64,000 nucleotides of DNA from positions 1-64,000 of the forward strand of contig CAKPXP010000004.1 of NCBI GenBank assembly GCA_934202005.1. The letters run 5' to 3'. Position 1 is the first letter of the stretch; each line of letters opens with the position of its first letter. The position numbers were made by a program, and so were the translations under genes. Under the pieces are notes generated by a model. The model did not search any database and was not told where the DNA came from. It saw nothing but the letters and a program-made list of their open reading frames with translations. Of the stretch, positions 48,835-64,000 are shown piece by piece. The stretch is from an uncultured Selenomonas sp. Its GTDB lineage: Bacteria > Bacillota > Negativicutes > Selenomonadales > Selenomonadaceae.

Positions 48835-48848
48835 CAGGAGACGATACG

Positions 48849-49661
48849 ATGCGGAAGCTCACGATGCTCGGCACGGGCTGTGCGATGGTCACCCATTGCT
48901 ACAATACCTGCTTTTTCCTTGAGAACGAGGACGGCAGCCTGCTGCTCACGGACGCGGGCGGCGGCAACACCATCCTGCGTCAGCTCGAGCTCACGGGCTT
49001 TGACTATGGTCGCTGTCACCACATGTTCGTCACGCATGGTCATACCGACCATGTGCTCGGCGTCATCTGGGTGATCCGCAAGGTCGCGGATCTCATGAAC
49101 AAGGGGAAATACGAAGGTACGTTCACGATTTATTGTCATGATGTCGTCAAGGACATGCTGCTCACGATGACGCGCATGACGCTCAAGAAAAAGGACTTCG
49201 CGCGCATCGGCGACGGCATCGAGCTGCGCGAGGTCAAAGACGGCGAGGCCATCATGCTGCCGTTCGCGCGCCTCACGGCGTTCGACATCTGCTCGACGAA
49301 GGCGAAGCAGTTCGGTTACGCGCTCGACTACGCGGACGGCATGCGCCTCACCTGCCTCGGCGACGAGCCCTTTAACGAGCACGACCGAGCCTATGCCGAG
49401 CACGCTGACTGGCTGCTCTCCGAGGCGTTCTGCAAATACGCCGACCGCGAGCGATACAAGCCCTACGAGAAGCATCACAGCACGGTCAAGGAAGCAAGCG
49501 AGCTCGCCGCCGCGCTCGGCGCGAAGCACCTCGTGCTCTACCATACAGAGGACAAGACGCTCGCGACGCGCAAGCGCGACTACGCGGCCGAGGCGGCGCA
49601 GTACTACGATGGCGTCGTCTGCGTGCCCGACGATCTCGAGACCATCGTGCTGGAGAAGTAA
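48849..49661 (+). CDS. Metallo-beta-lactamase fold hydrolase (RNase Z-like)
   Basis: 270-aa MBL-fold protein. LTMLGTGCAMVTHCYNTCFFLE start, SLLLTDAGGGNTIL, the metal motif VTHGHTDHVLGVIWVIR (HxHxDH), CLGDEP as the later Asp, and the C-terminal His in KHLVLYHTED. Spacing resembles RNase Z/ElaC-type proteins, but the length and missing exosite leave tRNA processing unproven. It follows rnc by 14 bases with AGGAG before the ATG and closes the operon. Confidence 0.82.
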   Translation: MRKLTMLGTGCAMVTHCYNTCFFLENEDGSLLLTDAGGGNTILRQLELTGFDYGRCHHMFVTHGHTDHVLGVIWVIRKVADLMNKGKYEGTFTIYCHDVVKDMLLTMTRMTLKKKDFARIGDGIELREVKDGEAIMLPFARLTAFDICSTKAKQFGYALDYADGMRLTCLGDEPFNEHDRAYAEHADWLLSEAFCKYADRERYKPYEKHHSTVKEASELAAALGAKHLVLYHTEDKTLATRKRDYAAEAAQYYDGVVCVPDDLETIVLEK

Positions 49662-49777: not shown

Positions 49778-50218
49778 TCAATCCGCTGTCGCCATCTTCT
49801 CGATGGAGCGGTTGAGGAGGTCGATGGCGTTTGCGAGCGCGTCCTGCTCCTCGGGGCGGAGGTTCTTGAGGCTGCGGATGAATTTCTGGCGCACGATCTC
49901 GTTCTGATCCTCGATGAGGCGTTCGCCCGCGGTCGTGAGGGAGATGAGCACGCGTCGGCGGTCGCGCCGGTCGGTCTCGCGCTGGATGAGGCCGGAGGCC
50001 GTGAGCTTCTCGCAGATGCTCGTCATCTGCTGCTTGGAAATGTTGAGGAGCGTGCCGACGGACGTGAGAGACTCCGTTCCGTCGACGCGCAGCGTCATGA
50101 GGACGGCGAACTGGTTGAAGGGGACGGGGACGGCGAGATGGCGGTAAAAGTTGCGGTGGATGAGCACGAGCGTCTCGATGAAGTGCATCGAGATGGACTC
50201 AGCGGCGGTTTCTGACAT
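49778..50218 (-). CDS. MarR-family regulator of the RND operon
   Basis: Winged-helix regulator, 146 aa. VPVPFNQFAVLMTLRVDGTESLTSVGTLLNISKQQMTSICEKL in pieces forms the HTH; the wing is DRRDRRRVLISLT. Long terminal helices for dimerisation are present. It is divergent from the adaptor/pump genes across 298 bases, where a MarR-like palindrome overlaps the pump promoter. A nearly identical palindrome precedes mlaE. It probably represses both; ligand unknown. The ATG follows AAAGGAGACGACCGC. Confidence 0.87.
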   Translation of the reverse strand: MSETAAESISMHFIETLVLIHRNFYRHLAVPVPFNQFAVLMTLRVDGTESLTSVGTLLNISKQQMTSICEKLTASGLIQRETDRRDRRRVLISLTTAGERLIEDQNEIVRQKFIRSLKNLRPEEQDALANAIDLLNRSIEKMATAD

Positions 50219-50428
50219 GCGGTCGTCTCCTTTTGACTGATTTCGTGGGCACGGCGGAACGGAGAGCGTCGAGGTGCGGCGGGCTGTGCGGTGCCGTTTG
50301 TTTTTATGATAGTGCGCGGGCGCGATATCGTATCGAGGGAATGAGCTTTTCATACAATTAAATTTGCAGAAAGCGGGGCGGGATACGCCCGCGCCGCCTT
50401 GACTTTTCGCTAGATATACTATACTATA

Positions 50429-50460
50429 TTGACGATAAATAGTAAACAAATATTTACTAA
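50429..50460 (+). promoter_or_regulatory. RND promoter with MarR-type operator
   Basis: TTGACG (50429-50434), about 16 bases, TATTTA-like -10. The palindrome TAGTAAA-CAAATA-TTTACTA (50440-50459, perfect 7-bp arms) covers the spacer and -10. Fifteen of 16 arm positions match the site at 57687-57708. Confidence 0.7.
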
Positions 50461-50516
50461 TTTTAAGAAGGAATGAGATGTCTCTTCCAGGGAAGTAAAA
50501 GAGGGAGGTTATTTTT

Positions 50517-51734
50517 TTGCATTTCGCGAAAAGAAAGAAACCGATTGCGCTCATGCTCGCGCTGGCGCTTGCGGCTTCCGCACTGCTCGCCGGCTGCGGC
50601 GGGCAGAAGCAGCAGGCGGCCGGCGGCGCTGCGCAGGTCAAGGCCATGAAGGTCCTGCAGCAGGACACGCCGGTCGTGAGCGAGTACGCGGGTCAGATCG
50701 CCGGTAAGGACGAGGTCAAGGTGCAGTCCAAGGTCTCGGGCCGCGTCGTGGAGAAGTATTTCCACGGCGGTGATTTCGTGCAGGCGGGGCAGCCGCTCTA
50801 CCGCATCGACAGCCGCCAGTATGAGTCAGCTGTGCTGCAGGCACAGGCGACGCTCGCGCAGTCGCAGGCGACGCTCGCGAACGCGCAGACGGATCTCGGC
50901 CGCGACCAGGAGCTCCTGGCATCCGACGCGATCTCCGAGCAGCAGGTCACGACGCAGCAGGCGAATGTCAACGCGTACAGCGCGGCGGCGGCGGCCAACC
51001 AGGCGCTGCTGCAGAAGGCGCAGCAGGATCTCTCCGATACGGTCGTCTATGCGCCGATGTCCGGTCAGGTCTCCGTCGATGACGTCGCCATCGGTACGTT
51101 CGCGACGGCGGGCAATACGAACCTCGTGACGATCGGTACGACGGATCCCGTGTTCGTGACGTTCAGCATCTCCGAAACGGAGTACCTGAAGTTCCGCAAC
51201 ATCCAGCAGAGGCAGAGCGGCAGCGGCAATGGCATCACGGTTGCAATCAAGCTCTCCGACGGCACGACGTATCCGCTTGACGGGCGCATCGTGCAGGCGG
51301 ACCGCGCGCTCACGCAGAATTCCGGCACACTGACGGTGAAGGCGCTCTTCGGCAATCCCGATGGACTTCTGCTCCCCGGCATGTTCGCGCGCGTGAAGCT
51401 CACAGGCGAGACGGTGCCGAACGCGATCCTCGTACCGCAGCGCGCGGTGCAGCAGCTCCTTGACAAGACGTTTGTCATGGTCGTCGGCGCGGACGGCAAG
51501 TCCGAGGCGCGCAAGATCGAGCTCGGTCAGCAGGTCGGCAGCTACTACATCGTCAAGAGCGGCCTTTCCGCGGAGGATACCGTCGTCGTCGAGGGACTCT
51601 CGAGCCTCACGGAGGGCAAGGAGCTTGCGGTGACGATGGTGACGCCTGAGGATATGGGCTTCTCATTTGATGAGGATACGACGCCGTATGATACGATGAC
51701 TTCCTCGGAAGCCAACAGCGGCAGCGACAGCTAA
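50517..51734 (+). CDS. RND efflux adaptor (membrane fusion protein)
   Basis: AcrA/MexA-type periplasmic adaptor, 405 aa. Lipoprotein signal: basic KRKK, hydrophobic stretch, lipobox LLAGC with Cys27. Lipoyl/hairpin region KVQSKVSGRVVEKYFHGGDFVQAGQPLYRID, alpha-hairpin residues about 95-165 rich in Ala/Gln, then AGNTNLVTIGTTDPVFVTFSISE and VPQRAVQQLLDKTFVMVVG. TTG start, 8 bases after GGGAGG. It is coupled to the pump gene; no outer-membrane factor follows. Confidence 0.93.
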   Translation: MHFAKRKKPIALMLALALAASALLAGCGGQKQQAAGGAAQVKAMKVLQQDTPVVSEYAGQIAGKDEVKVQSKVSGRVVEKYFHGGDFVQAGQPLYRIDSRQYESAVLQAQATLAQSQATLANAQTDLGRDQELLASDAISEQQVTTQQANVNAYSAAAAANQALLQKAQQDLSDTVVYAPMSGQVSVDDVAIGTFATAGNTNLVTIGTTDPVFVTFSISETEYLKFRNIQQRQSGSGNGITVAIKLSDGTTYPLDGRIVQADRALTQNSGTLTVKALFGNPDGLLLPGMFARVKLTGETVPNAILVPQRAVQQLLDKTFVMVVGADGKSEARKIELGQQVGSYYIVKSGLSAEDTVVVEGLSSLTEGKELAVTMVTPEDMGFSFDEDTTPYDTMTSSEANSGSDS

Positions 51735-51747
51735 GGGAGGCGGCGAT

Positions 51748-54700
51748 TTGTCTAAATTCTTTATTCATCGCCCGATTTTCGCCATCGTTGTCTCGCTCAT
51801 CATTGTCATCGCCGGCGCGATTGCGGCGACGCAGCTGCCGATCGCGCAGTATCCGCAGATCTCGCCGCCGACGGTGCAGGTGTCTGCGAGCTATACGGGC
51901 GCGAGCGCCGCGGTCGTCAACCAGACGATCGCGCAGATCGTCGAGGAACAGGTCAACGGCACGCAGGGCATGGACTACATGTCCTCGAGCTCTGATGATA
52001 CGGGGGGGTACAGCCTGTCGGTCACGTTCGATGTCGGCACGGACGGCGATATGGACTCGGTCAAGGTGCAGAACAACGTCGCCTCCGCGACGAGCCAGCT
52101 CCCCTCTGAGGTCCAGCAGGTCGGCGTGACGACGAGAAAATCGACGAACGATATGGCGTACATGATGGCGTTCTATTCGCCGGATGGTACGTATGACCGC
52201 GCGTTTATGAAGAACTACGCGACGATCTATCTCCTGGACAAGCTCAAGCGCATCAACGGCGTCGGCGATGTCCAGGTGTTCGGCTCGGACTACGCGATGC
52301 GCGTCTGGCTCAACCCGGACAAGCTCGCGGAGCTCGGCCTCACGGTCGCTGATGTCTCGGCGGCCATCAAGGAGCAGAACGTCCAGGCGCCTGCCGGTAC
52401 GGTCGGCGCGATGCCGGTCAACAACGGGCAGGAAAAGCAGATGTCCGGCAAGATCGAGGGACGTCTGACGACGCCGGAGGAGTTCGGCAACGTCATCATC
52501 AAGTCGGCTGGCGACGGCAAGTTCGTCCGCCTCAAGGATGTCGCAAAAATCGAGGCGGGCGCGCAGTCGGAGAGCATCATCTCGAAGTTCAACGGCTATC
52601 CGTCCGTCGGTTTCGGCATCAAGCTCACGAGTGACGCGAATGCCATGCAGACCATCAGCGAGGTGCGCAAAGTCTTTGACGAGGCGAAGGAGACGCTGCC
52701 GCCAGGTATGGAGATGTCGACAATCTTCGACTCGACGGACTATATCAGCACATCTATCGAGGAGGTCTTGATGACCTTTGTGGAGGCGCTGCTGCTCGTC
52801 GTCTTCGTCATCTTCGTTTTCCTGCAGAACTGGCGCGCAACGGTCATTCCGCTGCTCGCCGTGCCGGTCTCGCTCGTTGGTACGCTCGGCGCGTTCATCG
52901 TGCTCGATTTCACCATCAACACGCTGACGCTCTTCGCGATGGTGCTCGCCATCGGCCTCGTCGTCGATGATGCGATCGTCGTCATCGAGAACGTCGAGAA
53001 GCACATGGAGGAGGGCCTGACGCCGGTCGATGCGACGGAGCGCGCGATGGACGAGGTCCAGGGGCCTGTCGTCGCCATCGCTGTCGTCCTCTCCGCCGTG
53101 TTCGTGCCGGTCGCGTTCCTCGGCGGCATGACAGGCGTCCTCTACAAGCAGTTCGCGCTCACGATCGCCGTGTCGGTCTGCCTTTCGGCCTTCGTGGCGT
53201 TGACGCTGACGCCGGCGCTCTGCGCGATGATGCTCAAACGACATACGGAGGAGGATGACCAGGGCGTGCTCGGCCGCTTCTTTGCGGGCTTCAACCGCTG
53301 GTTCGAGCGCACGAAGCTCGGCTATGTCGGCATCGTGGCGAAGTTCATCCGCCATACGCGCCTCGCGTTCATTTTCCTGCTCATCGTGACGGGTGTCGCG
53401 GGGCTCATCTACAAGAACCTGCCGTCGACGTTCGTGCCGAACGAGGATCAGGGCTACATGTTCGCGGCGGTCGAGATGCCGGACGGCACTTCGGCCAACC
53501 GCACGCAGGAGGTCATCGACAGGCTCAACGTGGCCATGATGGAGAATATCAAGGGCTTCGATGGCACGATGGCCATCACGGGCTTCTCGCCGCTCTCGGG
53601 CGGTGCGTCCTCGAGCGCCGGCATGATCGTCGTCGGCATGAAGGACTGGTCGCAGCGTGAGGACGCGGCGGCCTCGGTCGACGCGGCGGTGCGCACGACG
53701 TTCGGCATCGGCGCGAAGGTCGCGCCGGAGGCCACGGTCATCGCAATGAATCCGCCGGCGCTCCCCGGCCTCGGCATGACGGGCGGCTGGACGCTCCAGC
53801 TGCAGGATATGACGGGGCACACGGAGACGGAGCTCAACGACATCACGAAGAAGATCGTTGCGGCAGCCAACCAGCGTCCGGAGCTCGCTGGCGTGCGTTC
53901 GACGTATTCCGCCGGCTCGCCGGTCGTCCAGTATGAGGTCGACCGCGAGAAGGTCAAGAACCTCGGCATCCAGCTCTCCGATGTCTTCACGGCCATGCAG
54001 GTCAACTACGGCGGCTACCAGGTCAACGACTTCAACCGCTTCGGCCGCAGCTACAAGGTCATGCTGCAGGCGGACAACGACTACCGCAGCTCGACGGATC
54101 AGATGAAGTTCATCTTCGTCAAGTCCGCCTCTGGCACGATGGTGCCGCTCGATACGCTCTTGAAGCCGAAGTTCACCTCCGGCCCGTCGACAATCTCCCG
54201 TTTCAACGGCACGCGCTCCATCCAGATCACGGGCCAGACAGGGAGCGGCTATTCCTCCGGACAGGCGATGAACGCCATCAAGGAGGTCGTGCAGCAGAAC
54301 GCGGGCACGGGCTTCAGCATCGAGTGGTCCGGTCAGAGCCGCGAGGAGGCAAAGGCCTCGAGCTCGACGATCAAGGTGCTCGTGCTCTCGCTCGTCTTCG
54401 TCTTCCTCTGCCTCGCAGCGCTCTATGAGAGCTGGAGCGTACCGTTCGCCGTGCTGCTCACGGTGCCGACGGGCATCTTCGGCGCGCTCGTCTCGGAGTA
54501 TGGGCTTTCCATCCTCGAGGAGATGTTCGGCCACATGAACGCTGGCCTGCAGGACAGCGTCTACATGCAGATCGGCATCATCGCGATCATCGGTCTCGCG
54601 GCGAAGAACGCGATCCTCATCGTCGAATTCGCCAAGGTCCGCGTGGATCGCGGCATGGAGCCGGTGAAGGCCGCGCTCGAGGCCGCGGGCCTGCGCCTGC

Positions 54701-54939
54701 GCCCGATCCTCATGACGAGCTTCGCGTTCATCATCGGCTGCGTCCCGCTCGCGATCGCGACGGGTGCCGGTGCTGCGGCGCGCAACGGCATGGGCGTCGC
54801 CGTCGTCGGCGGCATGTTCTTCGCGACAGCGATGGGCATCTTCCTCATCCCCGTCTTCTTCGTGGCGACGGAATGGATCGCCGCGAAGCTCGGCATCGTG
54901 CCGAAGGCGCGGAAAAAGACGTCCATTGATTACATGTGA
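51748..54939 (+). CDS. RND multidrug efflux pump, HAE1 family
   Basis: AcrB/MexB-type proton-driven pump, 1063 aa, 12 membrane helices and two large periplasmic loops. FFIHRPIFAIVVSLIIVIAG start, proton-relay Asp pair in AIGLVVDDAIVVIENVEKH, FVPVAFLGGMTG, and second-half motifs NAILIVEFAKVRVDRGM and RPILMTSFAFIIG. TTG start after GGGAGGCGGCGAT. The pump must use a TolC encoded elsewhere; the nearest is at 60635, under a matching operator. Confidence 0.95.
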   Translation: MSKFFIHRPIFAIVVSLIIVIAGAIAATQLPIAQYPQISPPTVQVSASYTGASAAVVNQTIAQIVEEQVNGTQGMDYMSSSSDDTGGYSLSVTFDVGTDGDMDSVKVQNNVASATSQLPSEVQQVGVTTRKSTNDMAYMMAFYSPDGTYDRAFMKNYATIYLLDKLKRINGVGDVQVFGSDYAMRVWLNPDKLAELGLTVADVSAAIKEQNVQAPAGTVGAMPVNNGQEKQMSGKIEGRLTTPEEFGNVIIKSAGDGKFVRLKDVAKIEAGAQSESIISKFNGYPSVGFGIKLTSDANAMQTISEVRKVFDEAKETLPPGMEMSTIFDSTDYISTSIEEVLMTFVEALLLVVFVIFVFLQNWRATVIPLLAVPVSLVGTLGAFIVLDFTINTLTLFAMVLAIGLVVDDAIVVIENVEKHMEEGLTPVDATERAMDEVQGPVVAIAVVLSAVFVPVAFLGGMTGVLYKQFALTIAVSVCLSAFVALTLTPALCAMMLKRHTEEDDQGVLGRFFAGFNRWFERTKLGYVGIVAKFIRHTRLAFIFLLIVTGVAGLIYKNLPSTFVPNEDQGYMFAAVEMPDGTSANRTQEVIDRLNVAMMENIKGFDGTMAITGFSPLSGGASSSAGMIVVGMKDWSQREDAAASVDAAVRTTFGIGAKVAPEATVIAMNPPALPGLGMTGGWTLQLQDMTGHTETELNDITKKIVAAANQRPELAGVRSTYSAGSPVVQYEVDREKVKNLGIQLSDVFTAMQVNYGGYQVNDFNRFGRSYKVMLQADNDYRSSTDQMKFIFVKSASGTMVPLDTLLKPKFTSGPSTISRFNGTRSIQITGQTGSGYSSGQAMNAIKEVVQQNAGTGFSIEWSGQSREEAKASSSTIKVLVLSLVFVFLCLAALYESWSVPFAVLLTVPTGIFGALVSEYGLSILEEMFGHMNAGLQDSVYMQIGIIAIIGLAAKNAILIVEFAKVRVDRGMEPVKAALEAAGLRLRPILMTSFAFIIGCVPLAIATGAGAAARNGMGVAVVGGMFFATAMGIFLIPVFFVATEWIAAKLGIVPKARKKTSIDYM

Positions 54940-54956
54940 TGCGATAATGGTTTCCA

Positions 54957-54993
54957 CCGTGTCGGGCTGCGTGCCCGGCGCGGTTTTTCTTTT
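54957..54993 (+). terminator. Terminator of the RND operon
   Basis: CCGTGTCGGGC-TGCGT-GCCCGGCGCGG, two wobbles, followed by TTTTTCTTTT. Confidence 0.8.
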
Positions 54994-55012
54994 GGAAAGC
55001 GCTAGGGGGGAT

Positions 55013-55039
55013 TAAGTTCCGTCTCGTTCCTGACGATAT
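55013..55039 (+). promoter_or_regulatory. Sigma-28 (FliA/SigD) promoter for flagellin
   Basis: TAAGTTCC, 11-base spacer, GACGATAT, close to the sigma-28 consensus TAAAGTTT-N11-GCCGATAA. It lies 44 bases before the flagellin ATG. Confidence 0.75.
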
Positions 55040-55082
55040 AAATAGAAGAAGGGAATTTCGTCCATAGAGCAAGGAGGCTGTT

Positions 55083-56390
55083 ATGACGATCAACAATTAT
55101 GTGATGTCCATCGGCATCCTCAATACACTCAATCAGCATTCCGCGAGCATGGCGAACCACATGCAGCATATCGCAACGGGCCTGCGCATCGCGCGCGTCG
55201 CGGATGATCCCGCGGGCTGGGCGATAGGGCAGCGCATGGATGTGCGTATCCGCAGTCTCGACGCGGCGAGCCGTAACGCGCAGCAGTCGAAGAGCCTCCT
55301 GAAGGTCGCGGACGGCGGCATCAGCTCGACGGTCGACATCCTGCGCACGCTGAAGGAAAAGGCCATCGAGGCGGCGAACGACACGGCGACGACGGCGGAT
55401 CGGCAGACCATCCAGAAGCTCTTCGACCAGTACGCCGACCAGATCGACGACAACGCGCTCGTGACGTACAACGGCAAATATCTCCTAGACGGCTCGCGGC
55501 AGGGGCTCTCGCAAAAGACGCAGCAGGCGTTCACGAACGAGCAGCTCGGCAAGGATACAGAGCTCACGACAAAGCTCACCAACCTCACGCGCCGCGACGG
55601 CTCGAGCCTCAATATTCTCGCGGGCGATACGGTGAACGTCTCCTATGTCAAGGATGGCAAGACGTACAGCGCGAGCTACGCGGCGAAGGATACGACGGTT
55701 GAGGATATCTTCAAGCAGATGAACGCCATCGCGGGCGATGTATTCGATATTGCGGGCATGAGCGATACGACGGAGATCGGCACGGGCGCGGCGGGGCAGA
55801 CGGTAAAGACGGCCGACGGGGAGAGCGCGATCTCCGTCAAGGCCAAGGACGCGGGCACAGCCGGGAGCATCTCAGGCTTCACCATCGGCATCAGCGACAG
55901 CCAGGGACAGATGAAGAAGACGGTGAATAGCGCGCTCGACGCGTTCACGGAGACCATCCAGGCGAAGGACGCGCGTGCGGACGGCTCGCTCAAGATGCAG
56001 ATCGGCGCGGACGCGAACAACAGCCTGAACATCCCGCTCGGCGATATGAGCTCGCGCGCGCTCGGCCTGCGCGGCAGGGACGGCAGCGTGCTCGACGTCA
56101 CGACGCAGAAGGGCGCGAACGCGGCGATGGACGTGCTCGATAAGGCGCTCGAGCGCGCGCTCGACCAGGAGACGACGGTCGGCGCGATGTCGTCGCGGCT
56201 CGACTACACCATCAGCAACCTCACGGTGCAGAGCGAGAACCTCACCAACGCGAAATCGACGCTGCTCGATGCTGATATGGCCAAGGAAATGCTCGCGTAC
56301 ACGCGGGAGAATGTGCTCATGCAGGCGGCAATGGCGATGCTCGCGCAGAACAACCAGAACGCGGGCTGGTTCCTCTCGCTGCTCGGCTGA
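55083..56390 (+). CDS. Flagellin, divergent
   Basis: 435-aa filament protein. The conserved N-terminal coiled region is SMANHMQHIATGLRIARVADDPAGWAIGQRM and continues to about residue 140 (AIEAANDTATTADRQTIQ, then DGSRQGL). The C-terminal region (about 345-435) has SSRLDYTISNLTVQSENLTNAKSTLLDADMAKE in pieces and ends NAGWFLSLLG, longer than the usual LLR/LLG ending context. The variable middle has beta-rich repeats. Pieces such as DDPAGWAIG (usual DDAAGLAI) show divergence. No other flagellar gene is near; it has its own sigma-28 promoter and RBS AAGGAGGCTGTT. Confidence 0.92.
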   Translation: MTINNYVMSIGILNTLNQHSASMANHMQHIATGLRIARVADDPAGWAIGQRMDVRIRSLDAASRNAQQSKSLLKVADGGISSTVDILRTLKEKAIEAANDTATTADRQTIQKLFDQYADQIDDNALVTYNGKYLLDGSRQGLSQKTQQAFTNEQLGKDTELTTKLTNLTRRDGSSLNILAGDTVNVSYVKDGKTYSASYAAKDTTVEDIFKQMNAIAGDVFDIAGMSDTTEIGTGAAGQTVKTADGESAISVKAKDAGTAGSISGFTIGISDSQGQMKKTVNSALDAFTETIQAKDARADGSLKMQIGADANNSLNIPLGDMSSRALGLRGRDGSVLDVTTQKGANAAMDVLDKALERALDQETTVGAMSSRLDYTISNLTVQSENLTNAKSTLLDADMAKEMLAYTRENVLMQAAMAMLAQNNQNAGWFLSLLG

Positions 56391-56474
56391 GGTGTGCCGC
56401 GGGAAAGCGCGGGATGTATGAAACTACACGTCTTCGTCATGGTGGATTCGTTCTGCCTTTTGGCAGCGCGTTCA

Positions 56475-56641
56475 TTAGGGAAGCACTGATTAATTCGGCA
56501 CCCTGCCTTTGCATATCTGCACTGTCCTCTCGTCGCCCTACAATCCTCAGCGTAGCTCTGCTACGCCTCCGGTTTGTCTCCTAGAGAGATACAGCGCATC
56601 TATGCAAATCCAGGGAACCTCATTTAATCAGCGCTTCCTTA
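56475..56641 (-). repeat. Full MITE-like palindromic repeat (copy E)
   Basis: 167 bp, minus orientation: TTAGGGAAGCACTGATTAAT to TTTAATCAGCGCTTCCTTA, with GCGTAGCTCTGCTACGC at the centre. The outer thirds differ from copies A, B and D (GCACCCTGCCTTTGCAT in place of GCACTCCGTCTTCACGC), marking a second subfamily shared with copy H. Confidence 0.9.
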
Positions 56642-56650
56642 GATAAAAAT

Positions 56651-56744
56651 AGGGCTGCTGCACGCAGCGATTTTCCTGCAGACCTCGTCGCGAGAAATTC
56701 TCGCCTGCCAGGTAACGCGGGAAATGCTTACGTGCAGCAGCCCT
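56651..56744 (-). ncRNA. Candidate structured RNA or complex terminator
   Basis: Perfect 14-bp arms AGGGCTGCTGCACG / CGTGCAGCAGCCCT enclose 66 bases that contain the palindrome GCGAGAAATTCTCGC. On the minus strand the second arm is followed by TATTTTTATC. It lies about 145 bases beyond the rnhA stop and touches repeat copy E. It could be a small RNA with its own terminator, a terminator of rnhA, or a relic of another element. The rest of 56745-56889 holds one more small hairpin (GTCCAC-AAA-GTGGAC at 56823-56837) and nothing else. Confidence 0.4.
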
Positions 56745-56889
56745 TCACTATGTAAATCCTCAAGAACGCAAGCCGCAGGCGCAACGTGATTTGCTGGATT
56801 TACTGCAAGGACGGCGCACAATGTCCACAAAGTGGACGTCTGTGCATGTAGCTTTGTGTGTTGTGCGGATGCCGATGGATGGCAGCGTG

Positions 56890-57606
56890 TCAGCGGCAGA
56901 ACTTCATCGCCTCGCCGCGCGCGAGCGTGTCGCAGCGCTCGTTGCGCGGGTTGCCGCGATGGCCCTTGACCCAGTGGTAGCTGATGGCGTGCGTGCGCGT
57001 GAGCGCGTCGAGCTGCTCCCAGAGGTCGCGGTTGAGTACGGGGGTGCCGTCGGCCTTCTTCCAGCCGCGCCGCTTCCAGCCCGCGAGCCATTTCGTCAGG
57101 CCGTTCTTGAGGTACTGGCTGTCCGTGTAGAGCGCGACGCGCGTGTCGGCGGGCGCGAAGGCGAGCGCCTCGATGGCGGCGGTGAGCTCCATACGGTTGT
57201 TGGTCGTCTCGGGATGGCCGCCGCTCTTTTCCGTGAGCGTGCCCGTGCGCTCGTCGCAGGCGACGATGGCCCAGCCGCCGGGGCCGCCGGGATTCTTGAG
57301 GCAGCTGCCGTCCGTGTAGATCGTGTAGTCGGCGGGCGCGGTCGCAGCTGCTGCCGCGCAGCTGCCGCGCGGCGGGCGCGGACGGGGCGCGGCGGGCGCG
57401 GACGGGGCGCGGCGGGCGCTACCCTGCGGCGCGCCCGTGGCGGCGTTCGTTTCGCCGTTCAGCCAGGCGAGCGCGGCCGCGACGTCGGCGAAGCCCTTGT
57501 ACCTCGCGCCGGGGTAGCCCTTGATTTGTTTCTCACATTCCTGCCAGCTCGTGAAGAGGCCGCACGCGCGGCCGCGCGCGACGGCGTAGATGGATGGTTT
57601 TGCCAT
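56890..57606 (-). CDS. rnhA: Ribonuclease HI with viroplasmin-like N-domain
   Basis: 238 aa. Residues 1-50 are the caulimovirus-VI/RNase H N-terminal hybrid-binding domain (YAVARGRACGLFTSWQEC, GYPGARYKGF). A Pro/Ala/Arg-rich linker (52-92) follows, built by a 20-bp tandem repeat. The catalytic domain has YTDGSCLKNPG (Asp99), NNRMELTAAIEAL (Glu), ALYTDSQYLKNGLTKWL (Asp), HWVKGHRGNPRNERCD with the last Asp. It removes RNA from RNA-DNA hybrids. Start ATG follows GAGGGATCTC. It is divergent from the mla operon. Confidence 0.94.
   Translation of the reverse strand: MAKPSIYAVARGRACGLFTSWQECEKQIKGYPGARYKGFADVAAALAWLNGETNAATGAPQGSARRAPSAPAAPRPRPPRGSCAAAAATAPADYTIYTDGSCLKNPGGPGGWAIVACDERTGTLTEKSGGHPETTNNRMELTAAIEALAFAPADTRVALYTDSQYLKNGLTKWLAGWKRRGWKKADGTPVLNRDLWEQLDALTRTHAISYHWVKGHRGNPRNERCDTLARGEAMKFCR
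57371..57419 (-). repeat. 20-bp tandem repeat in rnhA linker
   Basis: GGCGGGCGCGGACGGGGCGC repeated at 57371 and 57391, plus 9 bases of a third copy at 57411. The unit length is not a multiple of three, so each copy is read in a different frame and a gain or loss would shift the frame of the catalytic domain. Confidence 0.85.
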
Positions 57607-57686
57607 GAGATCCCTCATTTCCTGCTGATGATCGGTGCTTCTATTATAGACGTTCCATGCCATCCGGGGCAATATCATGCAAAAAA

Positions 57687-57708
57687 TTAGTAAACATATC
57701 TTTACTAA
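57687..57708. promoter_or_regulatory. MarR-type operator upstream of mlaE
   Basis: TTAGTAAA-CATATC-TTTACTAA: perfect 8-bp arms with a 6-base spacer. It is almost the same as the site in the RND promoter at 50440. Its right arm overlaps the putative -35 (TTTACT) of the mla promoter. Confidence 0.75.
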
Positions 57709-57729
57709 CTCCGCTTTGCTTGCTAAACT
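57701..57729 (+). promoter_or_regulatory. Promoter of the mla-tolC-tamB operon
   Basis: TTTACT, 17-base spacer, TAAACT, 66 bases before the mlaE ATG. Confidence 0.55.
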
Positions 57730-57794: not shown

Positions 57795-58562
57795 ATGCTT
57801 CATTTACTCGAACAGCTCGGCGCATTCGTGATCGCGCGCTGTGAGGCGTTCGGCACGGTGGTGCTGCTCTACGCGGAGACGATGCGGCAGCTGCGGCATC
57901 GGCCGCGCGTGCGGCACATCCTGGCGCAGATGTCGCATCTCGGTGTGGACTCGCTCTCCATCGTGTGCCTCACGCTGCTCTTCACGGGCGTCGTGCTCAC
58001 GCTGCAGACGGCGCATGAGTTCATCAAGTTCGGCGCGCAGGGGACGATCGGCGCGGTCATCGCGATCGCCATCGGTCGCGAGCTTGGGCCTGTGCTCGTG
58101 GGGGTTGTCTGCGCGGGCCGCGTCGGCGCGGCCATCACGGCGGAGATCTCGACGATGAAGGTCACGGAGCAGATCGACGCGCTGCGCGTGATGGCGGTGA
58201 GTCCCGTCGACTACCTCATTGTGCCGCGCATGCTCGCCTGCATGCTGGTCGTGCCGTTGCTCACGATATTCGGTGATTTCATCGGCGTGTTCGGCGGCTG
58301 GGTGGTCGCGGTCTATTACTCAGGCGTCAGCTCGTTCCTCTTCACGAACGCCATCCATGTCTATGTCGATGCCTATGACCTCCTCGGCGGCCTCGTCAAG
58401 GCGGTCTTCTTTGGCAATGTCATCGCGGTGCTCGGCTGTTATTACGGCCTGCACGCGCCGGACGGCGCGGAGGGCGTCGGACGCGCGACGACGCGCACGG
58501 TCGTCGCCTCCATCATCGTGATTTTCATCTTGAACGCGCTCTTGACTCTTATCCTATATTAA
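57795..58562 (+). CDS. mlaE: MlaE-family ABC lipid-transport permease
   Basis: Inner-membrane permease of the Mla phospholipid transporter, 255 aa, about five or six membrane segments. FTGVVLTLQTAHEFIKFGAQGTIGAVIAIAIGRELGPVLVGVVCAGRVGAAITAEISTMKVTEQIDAL, seen in pieces, is the family hallmark (RELGPVL, AGRVG, EISTMKVTEQIDALRVM). The ATG follows GAGGAGGAACGCG. It starts the mlaE-mlaF-mlaD-tolC-tamB run, a gene order known from Veillonella. Confidence 0.95.
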   Translation: MLHLLEQLGAFVIARCEAFGTVVLLYAETMRQLRHRPRVRHILAQMSHLGVDSLSIVCLTLLFTGVVLTLQTAHEFIKFGAQGTIGAVIAIAIGRELGPVLVGVVCAGRVGAAITAEISTMKVTEQIDALRVMAVSPVDYLIVPRMLACMLVVPLLTIFGDFIGVFGGWVVAVYYSGVSSFLFTNAIHVYVDAYDLLGGLVKAVFFGNVIAVLGCYYGLHAPDGAEGVGRATTRTVVASIIVIFILNALLTLILY

Positions 58563-58581: not shown

Positions 58582-59328
58582 ATGATAAGATTGATAGATG
58601 TAAGCAAGAGCTTCGACGGTTATGAGGCGCTGAAACATGTGAGCCTCACGATCGCGGATGGCGAGACGCTCGCCATCATCGGCGGTTCAGGCTCCGGCAA
58701 GAGCACGCTGCTCCGACTGCTCATCGGGCTCATCAAGCCGACGAGCGGCGAGATCTATATCGGCGATCAGGAGATCGGCCATATGACGGAGCAGGAGCTC
58801 AAGCCCATCCGCCTGCACATGGGGATGGTGTTCCAGTACTCAGCACTCTTCGACTCGATGACGGTCGGCGACAACGTCGCGTTCGGCCTGCGCGAGCACA
58901 CGGATCTCAGCGAGGCGCGCATCGCTGAGATCGTGCGCGAAAAGCTCCATCTCGTCGGGCTCGACGGCGTGGAGGATCTGATGCCGGGCGAGCTCTCGGG
59001 CGGTATGAAGAAGCGCGTGAGTCTCGCGCGCGCCATCGCCATAGAGCCGTCCATCATTTTCTACGACGAGCCGAGCTCCGGTCTCGATCCCATCATGACG
59101 GAGAAGATCGACGAGCTCATCATCCATACACAGAGGGCGCTCCATGTGACGAGCGTCGTCGTTACGCATGATATGGCGAGTGCCTGCCGCATCGCGGACC
59201 GCATCGCCATGATATACGAGGGAGAACTCATCGCCGTCGATACGGCGGAGCGCTTCCAGAGACTCAAGGATCCAAGGGTGCAGGCGTTCTTCCATACGCT
59301 GCGCACGACAAAGGAGGTTTGCCCATGA
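58582..59328 (+). CDS. mlaF: MlaF-family ABC ATPase
   Basis: ATPase of the Mla transporter, 248 aa. Walker A GGSGSGKSTLLR near residues 34-45, Q-loop MVFQYSALFDSMTV, signature ELSGGMKKRVSLARAIA, Walker B SIIFYDEPSSGLDP, H-loop VVTHDM. The FDSMTVGDNVAF segment and the extended C-terminal helix are typical of MlaF. It overlaps mlaD by 4 bases. Confidence 0.95.
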   Translation: MIRLIDVSKSFDGYEALKHVSLTIADGETLAIIGGSGSGKSTLLRLLIGLIKPTSGEIYIGDQEIGHMTEQELKPIRLHMGMVFQYSALFDSMTVGDNVAFGLREHTDLSEARIAEIVREKLHLVGLDGVEDLMPGELSGGMKKRVSLARAIAIEPSIIFYDEPSSGLDPIMTEKIDELIIHTQRALHVTSVVVTHDMASACRIADRIAMIYEGELIAVDTAERFQRLKDPRVQAFFHTLRTTKEVCP

Positions 59329-60605
59329 AGACAGAGGCGAAGGTCGGCGCGTTCACATTGGCGGGCCTGCTGCTGCTCGCAGCGCTCGTCATCGGGCTCA
59401 GCGGCTTCTCCCTCCGTTCCAGCAAGGGATATACGGTCTATGCCGGCTTCCATCAGGTCGTCGGTCTCGAGAAGCAGGCGCAGGTCTGTCTCTCCGGCGT
59501 GCCCGTCGGCGAGGTGAAGTCCATCGAGAACGATGGCGGCGGCGTGACGGTGGCGATGAGGGTTCGCCCGGACGTCCGCATCCCGGAGGGATCGCATGTG
59601 ACGATCGGCACGCCGGGCGTCATGGGCGAGAAGTTCGTCAACATCCAGCCAGCGGAGGACCGCGGCTACTATATCAGCGACGGCGCGTATCTCATCGGCG
59701 AGGACGAGGCGGGCATGGATTCGATGTTCGCGGGCATCAACCAGGCGGTTGGAGAGGTGCAGGAACTGCTCGCGAGCATGAACAGCATCGTCGGCAATGA
59801 GGGCTTCCGTACCTCCATCCTGCAGATGATGGCGAACCTGCGTGATACGACGGAGCATCTTTCAGGACTCATCGCCGTCCTCGAGCAGACGGCGGCGGAG
59901 AACCGTGGGAATGTCCATGAGATCACGGCGAATCTTGTGACGCTCACGGCTTCGATGAACCGCACGATGGGGAATGTCGAGCACATGATGGCGAACCTCG
60001 ATGCCTTCGCGGGCGACCCGGCGACGACGGCGAGCCTGCGCGAGACGCTCACGAATATCCAGGATACGAGTGCGCGCATCGACAAGATGGCGCAGAATCT
60101 CGAGGGCGTCGCGGGCGATCCCGAGACAGCGGAAAGCCTGCGTGAGACCATAAAGAACGCGCGCGACGTGAGTGCGCGCGCAAGCAAGGCGCTCAGCAAG
60201 GTTGGCAGCCTCTCGATGGAGCCGCGCGTCGATGTGCTCTACAGCGGCAAGGAGCACGACTGGAGCGCGAACGCGAATCTGCGTGTGGAAAACGGCGCGC
60301 GCTTCCTCGACCTCGGCGTCGATGACATCGGCAATGACAGCCTCTTCAACGCGCAGGTCGGGCGGCGTCGCGGCAGTCTCGGCGCGCGCGGCGGCGTGGT
60401 CGCCGGCAAGGTCGGCCTCGGCCTCGATGCCTATGCGGGTGATAAGTTCACCTTTTCCGCGGACGCCTATGACCCGGACGATGTGAAGCTGCGGCTGCGC
60501 GCCGCGTATGATCTCGGAGGCGGCACCGCTCTTCTCGGGCAGTTCGATGATGTGACAGACAGTGAGAAACGCGCGGGCTATTTCGGTCTGCGGCAGACGT
60601 TCTGA
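59325..60605 (+). CDS. mlaD: MlaD fused to helical bridge and beta-barrel
   Basis: 426 aa, against about 180 in E. coli MlaD. A short cytoplasmic start and membrane helix (residues 9-28) lead to an MCE domain (about 36-115: YTVYAGFHQVVGLEKQAQV, GVPVGEVKSIEN, GTPGVMGEKFVNI). Residues 130-290 are long helices with two similar units of about 35 residues (each with AGDP-T--SLRET). From about 296 to the end, amphipathic strands with Gly/aromatic turns (VDVLYSGKEHDWSANANLRV, RAGYFGLRQTF) look like an outer-membrane barrel ending in Phe. This is the trans-envelope MlaD architecture reported for Veillonella parvula. Confidence 0.92.
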   Translation: MKTEAKVGAFTLAGLLLLAALVIGLSGFSLRSSKGYTVYAGFHQVVGLEKQAQVCLSGVPVGEVKSIENDGGGVTVAMRVRPDVRIPEGSHVTIGTPGVMGEKFVNIQPAEDRGYYISDGAYLIGEDEAGMDSMFAGINQAVGEVQELLASMNSIVGNEGFRTSILQMMANLRDTTEHLSGLIAVLEQTAAENRGNVHEITANLVTLTASMNRTMGNVEHMMANLDAFAGDPATTASLRETLTNIQDTSARIDKMAQNLEGVAGDPETAESLRETIKNARDVSARASKALSKVGSLSMEPRVDVLYSGKEHDWSANANLRVENGARFLDLGVDDIGNDSLFNAQVGRRRGSLGARGGVVAGKVGLGLDAYAGDKFTFSADAYDPDDVKLRLRAAYDLGGGTALLGQFDDVTDSEKRAGYFGLRQTF

Positions 60606-60634
60606 TAGAATAGGATTTGACAGGAGGAGTCACT

Positions 60635-62317
60635 TTGAAGAAAGCGAATCGTTTCCATAAAAAGCTCACGGCGCTTGTGCTCGCAGGCCTCATGGCGCTG
60701 AGCGCCGGTACGGCGCTTGCGGCGAATACCGTGGAGCTCGGTCTCGACGATAGCATCCAGATGGCGCTCGAGAACAACCGCGCCATCAAGCAGTCCATCG
60801 CGCAGGTAGACCAGGCGCGCTGGAATCTCTCGTCTGCGCGCCGTAGCGCGGGGCCGACGCTTGCCTGGCAGGGCACAGTGAACCGCGTGGGCGGTAAGGC
60901 GTACGAGCACGCGGACTACGACACGGCCTACGGCAATACGCTGCAGGCGGCTTACAATCTCGACGCGAGCGGCAGTCTGAAGCATACGCGGCAGCGTGCG
61001 AGCTTTGCGCTCAACGCGGCGGATCTCGCACTCGAGAACGCGAAGCAGGCCGTGAAGCTCCAGACGACGCAGGCGTACTACCAGCTGCTCGAGTGCCGCA
61101 ACCTCGTCGATGTCAATCAGGAGGCCGTCGATACGCTTGAGGAGCATCTGAGTAACGTCAACGCGCAGTACCGCGTGGGCACGGTCGCGAAGTCCGATGT
61201 GCTCGCCTCGGAGGTTCAGCTCGCGAACTCACAGCAGAGCCTCGTGACGGCGCAGAACAATTACGATATCGCGATGGCGACGCTCAACAACATCATCGGC
61301 CTGCCGTCGGATACGGTGCTCTCCGTCAAGGATCAGCTCCAGTACACGGCCTATCCTGATCTGAACCTCGATAGCTGCACGGTCTACGCGCTCGACAATC
61401 GCCCGGACGGCATCGCGGCCGACTACGAGGTCGAGCAGAGCAAGGAAGCCCTCGCCATCGCGAAGGCCGGCCATCTGCCGACGGTCACGGCAGGCGTCAC
61501 GCGCGGCCTCACGGGACGTGATGCGTTCAAGGAGGACATCACGGGCCAGTGGGCGGCCGGCCTCACGGCGAGCTGGAACATCTTCGATAACGGCCAGGTA
61601 GGCGCGGCGGTCGAGCAGGCGAAGGCCGGCCTGCGCGCGGCGGAGGAGTCCGCGGCGGCGACGAAGGAGAACATCCAGCTCAATGTGCGCGAGCAGTTCC
61701 TCTCGCTGCAGGCGGCGGAGAAGAACATCCAGACGACGTCCAAAGCCGTCGAGCAGGCAGAGGAGGACTACAAGATCGCGCAGGTCCGCTACAGCGCCGG
61801 CGTCGATACGAACCTCGCCGTCATGGACGCGCAGGAGAAGCTCACGAGTGCGCGCACGAACTACTACACGGCGCTCTATAACTACAATACGAGCAAGGCG
61901 GCGCTCGACAAGGCGATGGGCATCCCCGTCGACATCGATGTGCCGCGCTATGTCGCCGCGCAGCAGGCGGGCGATACGCCGCGCGAGACGCTCGATGCCG
62001 CGCTGCTCCGCGAGAAGCCCTCGAAGGATGAGGAGAAATCCCTGCGCGAGGTCAAGGACGTGGTGAAGATCGCGGCCGCGAAGGAAGCGGACGCCAAGAA
62101 GGCCGAGGCGAAGGCTGCGCAGGAAAAGGCCGCGGTCAAGCAGACGAAAAAGGCGGATAAGACAGAAAAAGCGGCGGTGAAACAACCGGCTGCAGCGGCC
62201 AAGACTGCCGCCGCGGACAAAACGGGTAAAACGGACAAAGCGGCGACGGCGGCACCACAGGCCAGTGAGAACACGCAGGCGGAGAGCAGCAGCGTGGCGG
62301 CGGAGCTCGCGCGCTGA
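60635..62317 (+). CDS. tolC: TolC-family outer-membrane efflux protein with Lys/Ala tail
   Basis: 560 aa. Signal peptide MKKANRFHKK then LTALVLAGLMALSAG, cleavage near ALA (residue 31). Two OEP repeats: ALENNRAIKQSIAQVDQARWNLSSARR start, LVDVNQEAVDTLEEHLSNVNAQYRVGTVAKSDVLASEVQLAN and the second-half equivalent AEEDYKIAQVRYSAGVDTNLAVMDAQEKLTSART, both in pieces. From about residue 455 there is an unusual 100-residue extension rich in Lys, Ala, Glu and Thr. TTG start after AGGAGGAGTCACT. It may serve the RND pump at 50517 as well as Mla. Confidence 0.93.
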   Translation: MKKANRFHKKLTALVLAGLMALSAGTALAANTVELGLDDSIQMALENNRAIKQSIAQVDQARWNLSSARRSAGPTLAWQGTVNRVGGKAYEHADYDTAYGNTLQAAYNLDASGSLKHTRQRASFALNAADLALENAKQAVKLQTTQAYYQLLECRNLVDVNQEAVDTLEEHLSNVNAQYRVGTVAKSDVLASEVQLANSQQSLVTAQNNYDIAMATLNNIIGLPSDTVLSVKDQLQYTAYPDLNLDSCTVYALDNRPDGIAADYEVEQSKEALAIAKAGHLPTVTAGVTRGLTGRDAFKEDITGQWAAGLTASWNIFDNGQVGAAVEQAKAGLRAAEESAAATKENIQLNVREQFLSLQAAEKNIQTTSKAVEQAEEDYKIAQVRYSAGVDTNLAVMDAQEKLTSARTNYYTALYNYNTSKAALDKAMGIPVDIDVPRYVAAQQAGDTPRETLDAALLREKPSKDEEKSLREVKDVVKIAAAKEADAKKAEAKAAQEKAAVKQTKKADKTEKAAVKQPAAAAKTAAADKTGKTDKAATAAPQASENTQAESSSVAAELAR

Positions 62318-62433: not shown

Positions 62434-64000
62434 ATGAAGCGGAAAACAGTATTGCGCGGCGTATGTGGCATCCTTTTTCTTTGCCTGCTCGCGGGCGCGG
62501 GGCTTTGGTATTACGTTCAGACGAGCGTCTTCATGCAGACGGCGGGGGAGCAGGCGGGGCGTCTCGCTGCCTCGGCGCTCGGCACGGAGGTCACTGTGGG
62601 TAGCGTTGAGATCTCTTCGCTCCATGAGCTCTCCCTTCATGATGTTGCCATCTATGACAAGCAGGCGGAATGCATCGCGAGCGCCGCGGAGGCGCGGGTG
62701 CATTTCCGCCTGCTTGCTGTGCTGGAAAATCCCGCCGCGGCCGTCGATGAGGTGACGCTGCGCGGCGTGACGGCCCTGCTCGCACAGCGCGCGGACGGAT
62801 CGTGGAACATCGAGGATATTGAGACGGGACGCACGGGGGAGAATGCGTTCCGCGGCGAGGTCGCCGTAGAGGATGCGCGCGTGACTGTGAGGCAGGGAGC
62901 GCGCTCTCTCACGGTGGATGATGTCAAGGGCGAGGCGGACTTCGCTGCGTTCCCTGCGATCCGCGCCGAGCTGCAGGCCGCGCAAGACGGCGCGCGGGCC
63001 GAGGTCACGGCGACGCTCGACAGCGACCGGCAGATCGTGAATGTGAAGGCGCGCGATGTCGATCTCGCCTCGTATCTTTACCTTGTCCCCGACGGGCTCT
63101 TGCCGGACGGCGTCACGCTCGTGGGCGGCGAGGTGAAGCAGGCATCGGCGACGTTCTACCGCCATGCGGGGCAGCTCTCCATCATCGGCGACGGCGAGCT
63201 TGCAGCGGGCGCCGTCGATGTGCAGGGCAGGCAGCTGCGGGAAATCCAGGGCTTCACGCATTTCACGAACCGCTCGCTCGGCGGCGATGTTACGGCGGAG
63301 CTCAATGGGGAGCAGGCGCGTGTCTACGGGGAGGTGCGTTTCGATACGCCGTCTCCCGCGATGAGCCTCACGCTCGAGGTGCCGTCGGTCGATCCCGCGG
63401 CCGTGCTCGGCGCGGCGCTGCCCATCGCCTATGAGGGGCCGGTCGCCGTTAGCGCGCGCATCGGCGGCACATTCGCGCAGCCCACAGCCGACGGCGAGGT
63501 GCGCATCGCGCGCGGCGCGGCGGAGGGGATTCCCTTTCAAAATGCCGCGGCGCATCTGCGCCTCCTCGGTGGTGTGCTCTATCTGCAGGAGGCGCGCGGG
63601 CAGGCGTTCGGCGGCCAGTTCTCTGGCGAGGCGGAGCTTACACTCGCCGATATGGCCTTCACGGGGCATGCCAAGGTGGAGGGCGTCTCGCTCGCCGCGC
63701 TCTCTCCCTGCCTCAGGCCGTATCTTGGCGACGCGCAGATGCCAGACGTTACAGGAACGCTCGCGGCGGATGTGGGCTTTTCCGGCCAGGGGGCTGACAT
63801 GGCGCAGCTCGCCCTTGACGGCAGCGCCTCGGTCAGCCGCGGCGCCTACGGCAGCCTGCCCATCGACCGTCTCGGCGCCTCGTTCTCGTTGCGCGGGCGC
63901 GATCTCACGCTCGATTATCTGAGCGCGCGCCTGCCGAATGGCTCGAGCATCGGCCTTGAGGGAACGGTCACGGACGGCACGGCACTCTCGCTCGCCTTCT
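62434..64000 (+). CDS. tamB: TamB/AsmA-like envelope lipid-transport protein (partial)
   Basis: The first 522 codons lie in the window and the gene runs off the right end. It begins MKRKTVLRGVCGILFLCLLA, one membrane anchor at residues 8-28, then repeats of beta strands of the AsmA/TamB bridge type: GTEVTVGSVEISSLHELSLHDVAIYD in pieces, GVTALLAQRADGSWNIEDIE, and many G-x-A-x-L-strand units. These proteins form a periplasmic groove moving phospholipid to the outer membrane. Position after mlaEFD-tolC matches Veillonella. ATG follows GGGGGATGTCACG. Confidence 0.85.
   Translation, partial: MKRKTVLRGVCGILFLCLLAGAGLWYYVQTSVFMQTAGEQAGRLAASALGTEVTVGSVEISSLHELSLHDVAIYDKQAECIASAAEARVHFRLLAVLENPAAAVDEVTLRGVTALLAQRADGSWNIEDIETGRTGENAFRGEVAVEDARVTVRQGARSLTVDDVKGEADFAAFPAIRAELQAAQDGARAEVTATLDSDRQIVNVKARDVDLASYLYLVPDGLLPDGVTLVGGEVKQASATFYRHAGQLSIIGDGELAAGAVDVQGRQLREIQGFTHFTNRSLGGDVTAELNGEQARVYGEVRFDTPSPAMSLTLEVPSVDPAAVLGAALPIAYEGPVAVSARIGGTFAQPTADGEVRIARGAAEGIPFQNAAAHLRLLGGVLYLQEARGQAFGGQFSGEAELTLADMAFTGHAKVEGVSLAALSPCLRPYLGDAQMPDVTGTLAADVGFSGQGADMAQLALDGSASVSRGAYGSLPIDRLGASFSLRGRDLTLDYLSARLPNGSSIGLEGTVTDGTALSLAF

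Follow-up and report, generated by a model that had tools for sequence, protein, structure and literature searches.

We analysed a 64,000-nucleotide stretch of DNA, called the window in this text, from an uncultured Selenomonas sp. (GenBank assembly GCA_934202005.1, contig CAKPXP010000004.1, positions 1 to 64,000). The palindrome TAGTAAA-N6-TTTACTA is found there twice, once between a marR gene and a divergent operon for a resistance-nodulation-division (RND) efflux pump with its membrane fusion protein (MFP), and once upstream of an mlaEFD-tolC-tamB operon for lipid transport. The initial annotation of this DNA had proposed that a single MarR repressor acts at both places and that the pump receives its outer-membrane channel from the lipid-transport operon. 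The features concerned are as follows, with the two palindromes called operator 1 and operator 2.

49778..50218, minus strand: marR, MarR-family regulator; KQQMT at residues 62-66 starts the predicted recognition helix
50399..50427, plus strand: predicted MFP-RND promoter, TTGACT-17-TACTAT (consensus scan)
50418..50446, minus strand: predicted divergent marR promoter, TTTACT (left arm of the operator)-17-TATAGT (consensus scan)
50439..50460, no strand: operator 1, ATAGTAAACAAATATTTACTAA, with the TAGTAAA-N6-TTTACTA core from 50440, between marR and the pump operon
50517..51734, plus strand: MFP, periplasmic adaptor of the RND pump; Pfam HlyD_D23, NCBIfam RND_mfp 253 bits (cut-off 94.9)
51748..54939, plus strand: RND permease of the AcrB type; Pfam ACR_tran 1090 bits, NCBIfam RND_permease_1 1304 bits (cut-off 1250)
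54956..54984, plus strand: terminator-like stem and T run after the RND gene, where the pump operon likely ends
57687..57708, no strand: operator 2, TTAGTAAACATATCTTTACTAA, that is TTAGTAAA-N6-TTTACTAA, with the core from 57688, upstream of mlaE
57701..57729, plus strand: predicted mla promoter, with TTTACT (right arm of the operator) as -35, 17 nt, and an extended -10, TG-C-TAAACT
57795..58562, plus strand: mlaE permease; Pfam MlaE, ATG after GAGGAGG
58582..59328, plus strand: mlaF ATPase; Pfam ABC_tran
59319..60605, plus strand: mlaD, MCE-domain protein of 428 aa; Pfam MlaD, NCBIfam OM_asym_MlaD 81.9 bits, under the cut-off of 135
60617..62317, plus strand: tolC, likely start TTG at 60635; Pfam OEP, Shine-Dalgarno-like sequence
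62434..64000, plus strand, running off the window: open frame of a tamB-like gene, named by position alone from the known gene order (PMC10665443)

A scan of the window confirmed the two palindromes at the places reported earlier, with 15 of 16 arm positions identical between them. When an 8+8 palindrome with up to three mismatches was searched for, operators 1 and 2 were the sole matches in the window (mean expected 0.01), and two matches were obtained in 0 of 100 shuffles of it. The nearest genome, G001 (2.7 Mb, 99% completeness), contained TAGTAAA-N6-TTTACTA in exact form only twice, at the two corresponding loci, with no copies at one or two mismatches and 40 at three. The pattern read backwards, used as a control, had no exact copy in G001, and with up to three mismatches it gave 101 matches compared with 42 for the palindrome; matches with three mismatches were therefore treated as background. 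The window falls in the Selenomonas bovis group: exact copies at both loci were also present in S. bovis DSM 23594, whose MarR (L016) is 97% identical to that of the window.

The marR gene on the minus strand and the MFP-RND genes on the plus strand are divergently oriented, and operator 1 contains the predicted -35 of marR and sits just past the predicted -10 of the pump operon. This geometry was recurrent: in 47 upstream regions both TTGAC and the TATACTATA block were part of the 80% consensus, and in 43 of the 47 a spacer of 17 nt separated the operator arm from a marR -10 (at least 4/6 matches). At mlaE, the right arm of the operator served as a -35 placed 17 nt before the -10 in 45/53 promoters with a site, and the TG of an extended -10 was present in 44/53. 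The earlier statement that each palindrome overlaps a core promoter element thus holds for mlaE and marR, where a -35 is overlapped in both cases, and not for the pump genes, whose predicted -10 is found just upstream of the operator.

The gene content of the window agreed with the initial annotation in that marR adjoins operator 1, the pump operon is without tolC, and the mla operon encodes a TolC, as judged from the Pfam OEP match. The pump operon was taken to be devoid of tolC because the terminator-like stem and then a flagellin gene come after the RND gene. The flagellin gene is at 55083-56390, between the pump operon and an RNase H-like gene. The order mlaE, mlaF, mlaD, tolC, tamB, in which tolC begins at most 30 nt after mlaD, matches that of the Negativicutes operon, with tamB assigned by position only.

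Distribution of the operator among related genomes

The survey was centred on a family of 189 genomes (f1), which was taken as Selenomonadaceae as inferred from named loci. An exact copy of the palindrome was present in 65/189 of these genomes, compared with 6/189 for the backwards control; mlaE was found in 186/189 and an RND relative in 182/189. The 55 exact copies in 54 stretches from this family were sorted by location. At the pump, 25 lay between marR and MFP and a further 3 preceded an MFP gene that has no marR; 2 preceded marR only. Another 20 were at most 400 bp upstream of mlaE, which left 5 at other places. These last five were a copy 777 bp upstream of mlaE (G044), one in the gap between mlaF and mlaD (G047), one in a coding frame, and two that precede a glycosyltransferase gene.

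The best match within 400 bp upstream of mlaE had 0-1 mismatches in 51/123 genomes, 2-3 in 6 and at least 4 in 66, and within 400 bp upstream of MFP it had 0-1 mismatches in 46/85 genomes, 3 in 1 and at least 4 in 38. The mismatch counts were thus bimodal, and in the 51 mlaE upstream regions with 0-1 mismatches the spacer varied while both arms stayed intact. A chance origin of the palindrome pair was ruled out by the shuffles, the backwards control and these bimodal counts.

For 70 genomes of the family both promoters were read, and 33 of these had both sites, 31 had neither and 6 had one only (Fisher's exact test, p = 1.5×10−13, kinship uncorrected). The pump site only was present in 5/70 (G010, G044, G050, G101 and G226) and the mla site only in 1/70 (G003). 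In G003 (L208, 1-360) the left half of the pump operator has been replaced by what by eye resembles the end of a transposase gene, with the mla operator intact, which represents either a natural break of the operator or an assembly join. The loci in this comparison are a non-random set: copies of the site were taken because they matched, siteless and pump-site-only genomes were chosen for reading, and genus g13, with more than 60 genomes, was sampled only. At genus level the corresponding table was 15 (both), 1, 0 and 14 (neither), with p = 2×10−7 in Fisher's exact test. The states in it were set by hand, with g18 scored as both (G024 has both sites, and G050 and G101 the pump site only), and both g22 (G107 has a pump site, and its mlaE is truncated at the start) and g26 (2 mismatches at mlaE in G032) as neither.

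Eighteen further mlaE promoters were exact in 8/8 genomes with two copies, had 1 mismatch in G007, and had at least 4 mismatches in 9/9 genomes of the siteless genus g13, giving a site (exact or with 1 mismatch) in 9/18. In 25 genomes chosen for having no known mla copy, the mlaE promoter had a site with 1 mismatch in 20, 0 mismatches in 1 (G224) and 2 in 1, and no site was found in 3. Absence of the palindrome from the mlaE promoters of sister species had been named in advance as grounds for giving up the proposal; the site was exact upstream of mlaE in 6/7 congeners (G001-G006) and had one mismatch in the seventh (G007). Beyond the genus, the site was found again in further genera of f1 and also in three other families. 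A class-wide regulon was rejected, given that an exact copy was present in 90/380 genomes of the class and that several of the copies inspected outside f1 were inside or beside unrelated genes or, in L286-L291, at loci with no match to the genes of the window. For this reason only located sites were counted.

The probable regulator and the possible supply of TolC

The site was mostly present or absent together with marR. A MarR gene was located within 1.3 kb in 43/46 pump promoters with the site, the exceptions being G016, G027 and G044; in G027 and G044 marR is located apart from the pump, and separate copies of the site accompany marR, the pump and the mla locus. Among 39 pump promoters without the site (800 bp or more was read in 37), there was one weak MarR match, in G041 (36.7 bits compared with 139-231), and three (G078, G091 and G093) belonged to operons with tolC placed between marR and MFP.

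The window MarR scored above the curated cut-offs for the MarR winged-helix domain (PF12802 34.7 bits, cut-off 27; PF01047 33.9 bits, cut-off 24.6) and reached none of the named NCBIfam MarR equivalogs (Rv0880, E. coli MarR, SlyA, OhrR and MprA), the best being Rv0880 with 53.9 bits against a cut-off of 220, and the E. coli MarR model giving 36.5 against 240. In MarR proteins the helix before the wing reads DNA. In a structure model of the window protein, which has the MarR fold, KQQMT opens a helix at residues 62-74 and the wing comes next. The motif KQQ[ML] was present at the predicted recognition helix in 54/54 MarR proteins encoded at most 600 bp from a site (53 genomes plus the window), which have a median pairwise identity of about 29% (approximate, from stop-to-stop frames); these proteins had been selected because their genes are close to a site, and the count concerns this set and not the frequency of KQQ among other MarRs. 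The run NISKQQMT was invariant in an alignment of 20 MarRs that included one from Bacillus. This protein, from Bacillus sp. EAC (L034, 9858), is 29% identical to the window MarR, has an SKQQMT helix, and has TAGTAAACTGTTGTTTACTA, the same palindrome, upstream of its gene, in a 20 kb locus that had no match to MFP, RND, MlaE or TolC. Given the shared palindrome, the co-occurrence with marR, the constant KQQ[ML] helix and the fixed promoter geometry, one MarR very likely represses both operons, and the single repressor of the initial annotation is strongly supported at the sequence level by the co-occurrence and by the one helix motif.

The outer-membrane channel gene of a known RND pump is often, though not always, in the same operon as the pump. 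A genome-wide search of G001 for OEP (PF02321), which is present as two repeats per TolC, gave four matches and thus two TolC proteins, that of the mla operon and one on another contig. In total 29 genomes were searched, of which G001 and 14 others had four matches and 14 had more. In 16 genomes the region of the second TolC was inspected, and it had an adaptor match alongside in 14 and an ABC-ATPase match in 15; Pfam matches in this region were to an adaptor and OEP in G001 and to MacB in G024. By these matches the other TolC gene of G001 is assigned to a separate adaptor/ABC exporter operon. Another TolC in the pump operon itself was ruled out in G001 by the genome-wide OEP search and elsewhere by BLAST with the window TolC.

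Genomes outside f1 differed in the position of tolC. Operons with marR facing tolC-MFP-RND were present in G078, G091, G093, G312 and G313, from two families, and no site at mlaE was found in any of these five genomes with tolC inside the pump operon (best 5-6 mismatches). Operons with marR facing MFP-RND without tolC were present in G062, G065, G077 and G080; the first three have an mla site (1, 1 and 0 mismatches, respectively) and G080 has none. In G307 and G310 a KQQ-type MarR with the site has no pump beside it, and there is no mla site. A supply of TolC from the mla operon would predict this pattern of mla sites in tolC-less compared with tolC-bearing pump operons, which comes from few families. 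The earlier claim that the pump obtains its channel from the lipid-transport operon fits the pattern, whereas the supply itself is something we infer.

The proposed regulon and its alternatives

We consider it highly probable that a MarR protein with a KQQM-type helix binds the palindrome at the marR/pump promoters and at the mlaEFD-tolC-tamB promoter and represses both operons as one regulon. According to this proposal, MarR would bind TAGTAAA-N6-TTTACTA in the promoter region shared by marR and the RND pump, and the same protein would bind the mlaEFD-tolC-tamB promoter, such that pump, TolC and lipid transport are held down together. Bound MarR would cover the -35 at both mlaE and marR and, at the pump, block the start of the transcript. 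An inducer, a drug or other lipophilic compound, would release MarR, upon which TolC from the mla operon could become the outer-membrane channel of the pump while Mla tightens the membrane. We give even chances to the wider proposition that Negativicutes have independently built a "mar regulon" of their own, with MarR itself acting on the pump, the Mla-TolC and, in one genus, the lipopolysaccharide (LPS) promoters, in which the pump borrows the channel of the lipid operon via the shared operator and one signal would both put the efflux machine together and seal the outer membrane.

Two alternatives concern the palindrome itself. The arms include a -35-like TTTACT, the need for a promoter favours part of the motif, and relatives share sequence, so the palindrome at mlaE might be without regulatory function, an AT-rich promoter sequence that looks similar by chance or through common ancestry. 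However, a -35 needs one arm only, and both arms were intact in the 51 of 123 mlaE upstream regions with 0-1 mismatches, with a varying spacer, while 66 of the 123 were at least 4 mismatches away; furthermore, the marR-less genera examined had no palindrome at mlaE. This explanation is thus very improbable. It is also improbable, though less so, that an unlinked regulator other than MarR recognises the palindrome, with marR no more than a neighbour. Linkage alone does not show binding, and the pump operons of G016, G027 and G044 have no marR within 1.3 kb, but in two of these three (G027 and G044) the site also accompanies a MarR gene at another locus, siteless pump operons are almost always without marR, and the helix motif and palindrome are constant while MarR drifts to a median identity of about 29%, the pair even recurring in Bacillus.

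A third alternative concerns the reason for the link. MarR might co-repress both operons in order to tighten the barrier through Mla lipid traffic together with efflux, with TolC a passenger and the pump using another TolC, an explanation to which we assign a smaller but considerable likelihood. In E. coli, MarA activates mlaFEDCB, and loss of mlaFEDCB raises drug accumulation and not efflux (PMC5684230); a second TolC is present in the genomes examined, and an operator at a heptosyltransferase gene in both species of genus g8 suggests an envelope regulon. On the other hand, no mla site was present in any of the 5 genomes whose marR-controlled pump operon includes a tolC gene (two families only), and barrier tightening alone would not predict this. 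We judge sharing of TolC to be the likelier of the two reasons, at about one chance in every two.

Several observations weigh against the proposed regulon or its TolC component. A pump site without an mla site was present in G010, G050 and G101 within f1 and in G080 outside it, G226 has 2 mismatches at mlaE, and in G044 a distance of 777 bp separates the copy from mlaE. In G047 (L125, 3758) an exact copy lies between mlaF and mlaD and would therefore govern mlaD-tolC-tamB only; the contig ends within mlaE and the promoter is cut off. In the window, transcription from a promoter-like match at 58559, where mlaE meets mlaF, might partly bypass operator 2. Siteless genomes also keep a tolC-less pump operon, and the existence of the pump therefore needs no shared regulation; in addition, another TolC could serve the pump. 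Finally, kinship inflates the survey counts. A tree of MlaE plus MlaF, with state labels assigned by hand, contained only 4 well-supported independent pairs (7 in all), and the correlation between pump and mla sites thus rests on few independent events. In the 4 pairs the mla site followed the pump site in 2.8 on average, there was no difference in 1.2, and the opposite never occurred (sign test, median p 0.25); a tree-based proof of correlated change was dropped given this small number of pairs.

Known systems and further copies of the operator

Control of mla genes by drug-resistance regulators has precedents. In E. coli, mlaFEDCB is bound and activated by MarA, which in turn is controlled by MarR; the part of the MarA regulon common to many Enterobacteriaceae includes tolC, xseA and mlaFEDCB (PMC5684230). 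MarA also activates LPS genes (PMC12052159). The initial annotation had known of no description of a link between efflux and phospholipid transport. For the direct MarR form in Negativicutes no report was found in a literature search, which covered titles and the starts of abstracts, with subscription journals mostly outside its scope, whereas the E. coli system already joins MarA-activated mlaFEDCB and tolC in one core regulon (PMC5684230). The half-palindrome used as a literature query gave unrelated papers among the matches listed.

As in the enterobacterial mar regulon, a MarR-family protein would here head a regulon joining efflux, TolC and Mla, with an LPS-type gene in one genus. In contrast to it, the MarR operator itself is at the pump and mla promoters, repression would take the place of activation by MarA, and the genes are mlaEFD-tolC-tamB in Negativicutes instead of mlaFEDCB and a separate tolC in Enterobacteriaceae. 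The frame beyond the end of marR (48543-49661), on the opposite strand, had no AraC-like sequence recognisable by eye, no family search having been made. The wiring would work like the mar regulon without being a member of it, because no marA was recognised in the neighbourhood of marR, which itself adjoins the operator. By this comparison it looks convergent with MarA control in E. coli.

The MexR/mexAB-oprM system of Pseudomonas aeruginosa is similar in that a divergent MarR-family gene represses the adjoining RND operon, but that operon has its own outer-membrane channel gene, and the passage of the review dealing with it names no second operator at an mla operon (PMC8277102). RamA of Klebsiella pneumoniae is likewise a drug-resistance regulator that raises Mla, through mlaFEDCB, but it is an AraC-family activator, and the control does not take the form of a direct MarR operator (PMC11792452). 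The mlaEFD-tolC-tamB operon, reported as conserved in all Negativicutes (Grasekamp et al. 2023, Veillonella parvula, PMC10665443), has in V. parvula a gene order identical to that of the window; MarR is not mentioned there, and the operator described here is not class-wide. For MlaD of V. parvula it has been proposed that the protein spans the envelope alone (PMC10665443). If the proposed regulon is true, efflux and outer-membrane lipid traffic have been wired together twice, via MarA in enterics and directly via MarR in diderm Firmicutes. Such a double origin would argue for selection coupling pump output to membrane sealing, and it would give a reason for the tolC gene inside the mla operon of Negativicutes.

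The RND protein of the window is 92% identical to those of other genera (G017, G045, G127, G205 and G010), compared with only 73-79% for MlaE, suggesting that the pump genes were possibly acquired by horizontal transfer. The identity of the window MarR was 60, 58, 43 and 68% to G017, G045, G127 and G010, respectively.

Some copies of the operator were located at other genes. Copies in coding frames (L095, L136, L140, L143, L148 and L149) were set aside as probable chance occurrences, and the tally of extra targets leaves out L142, L144, L153, L155, L158 and L286-L291. In both genomes of genus g8 (L096, 7731, in G014; L118, 7016, in G042) the operator precedes a glycosyltransferase-9 (heptosyltransferase) gene with the same -35/-10 geometry, and this gene is likely a third target, one touching LPS, in the genus. 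In G044 (L119, 7185) the MarR gene with its own operator, away from pump and mla, adjoins ATPase genes of an ECF-type-looking transporter. G128 (L152, 6967) has an exact copy between divergent MFS and MatE transporter genes, which, like the heptosyltransferase gene of g8, were retained as candidate targets. In G307 (L281, 1501), which belongs to another family, the gene facing a KQQM MarR and its copy of the operator encodes an MFS transporter, and the pair of MarR and operator may thus be a more general efflux switch.

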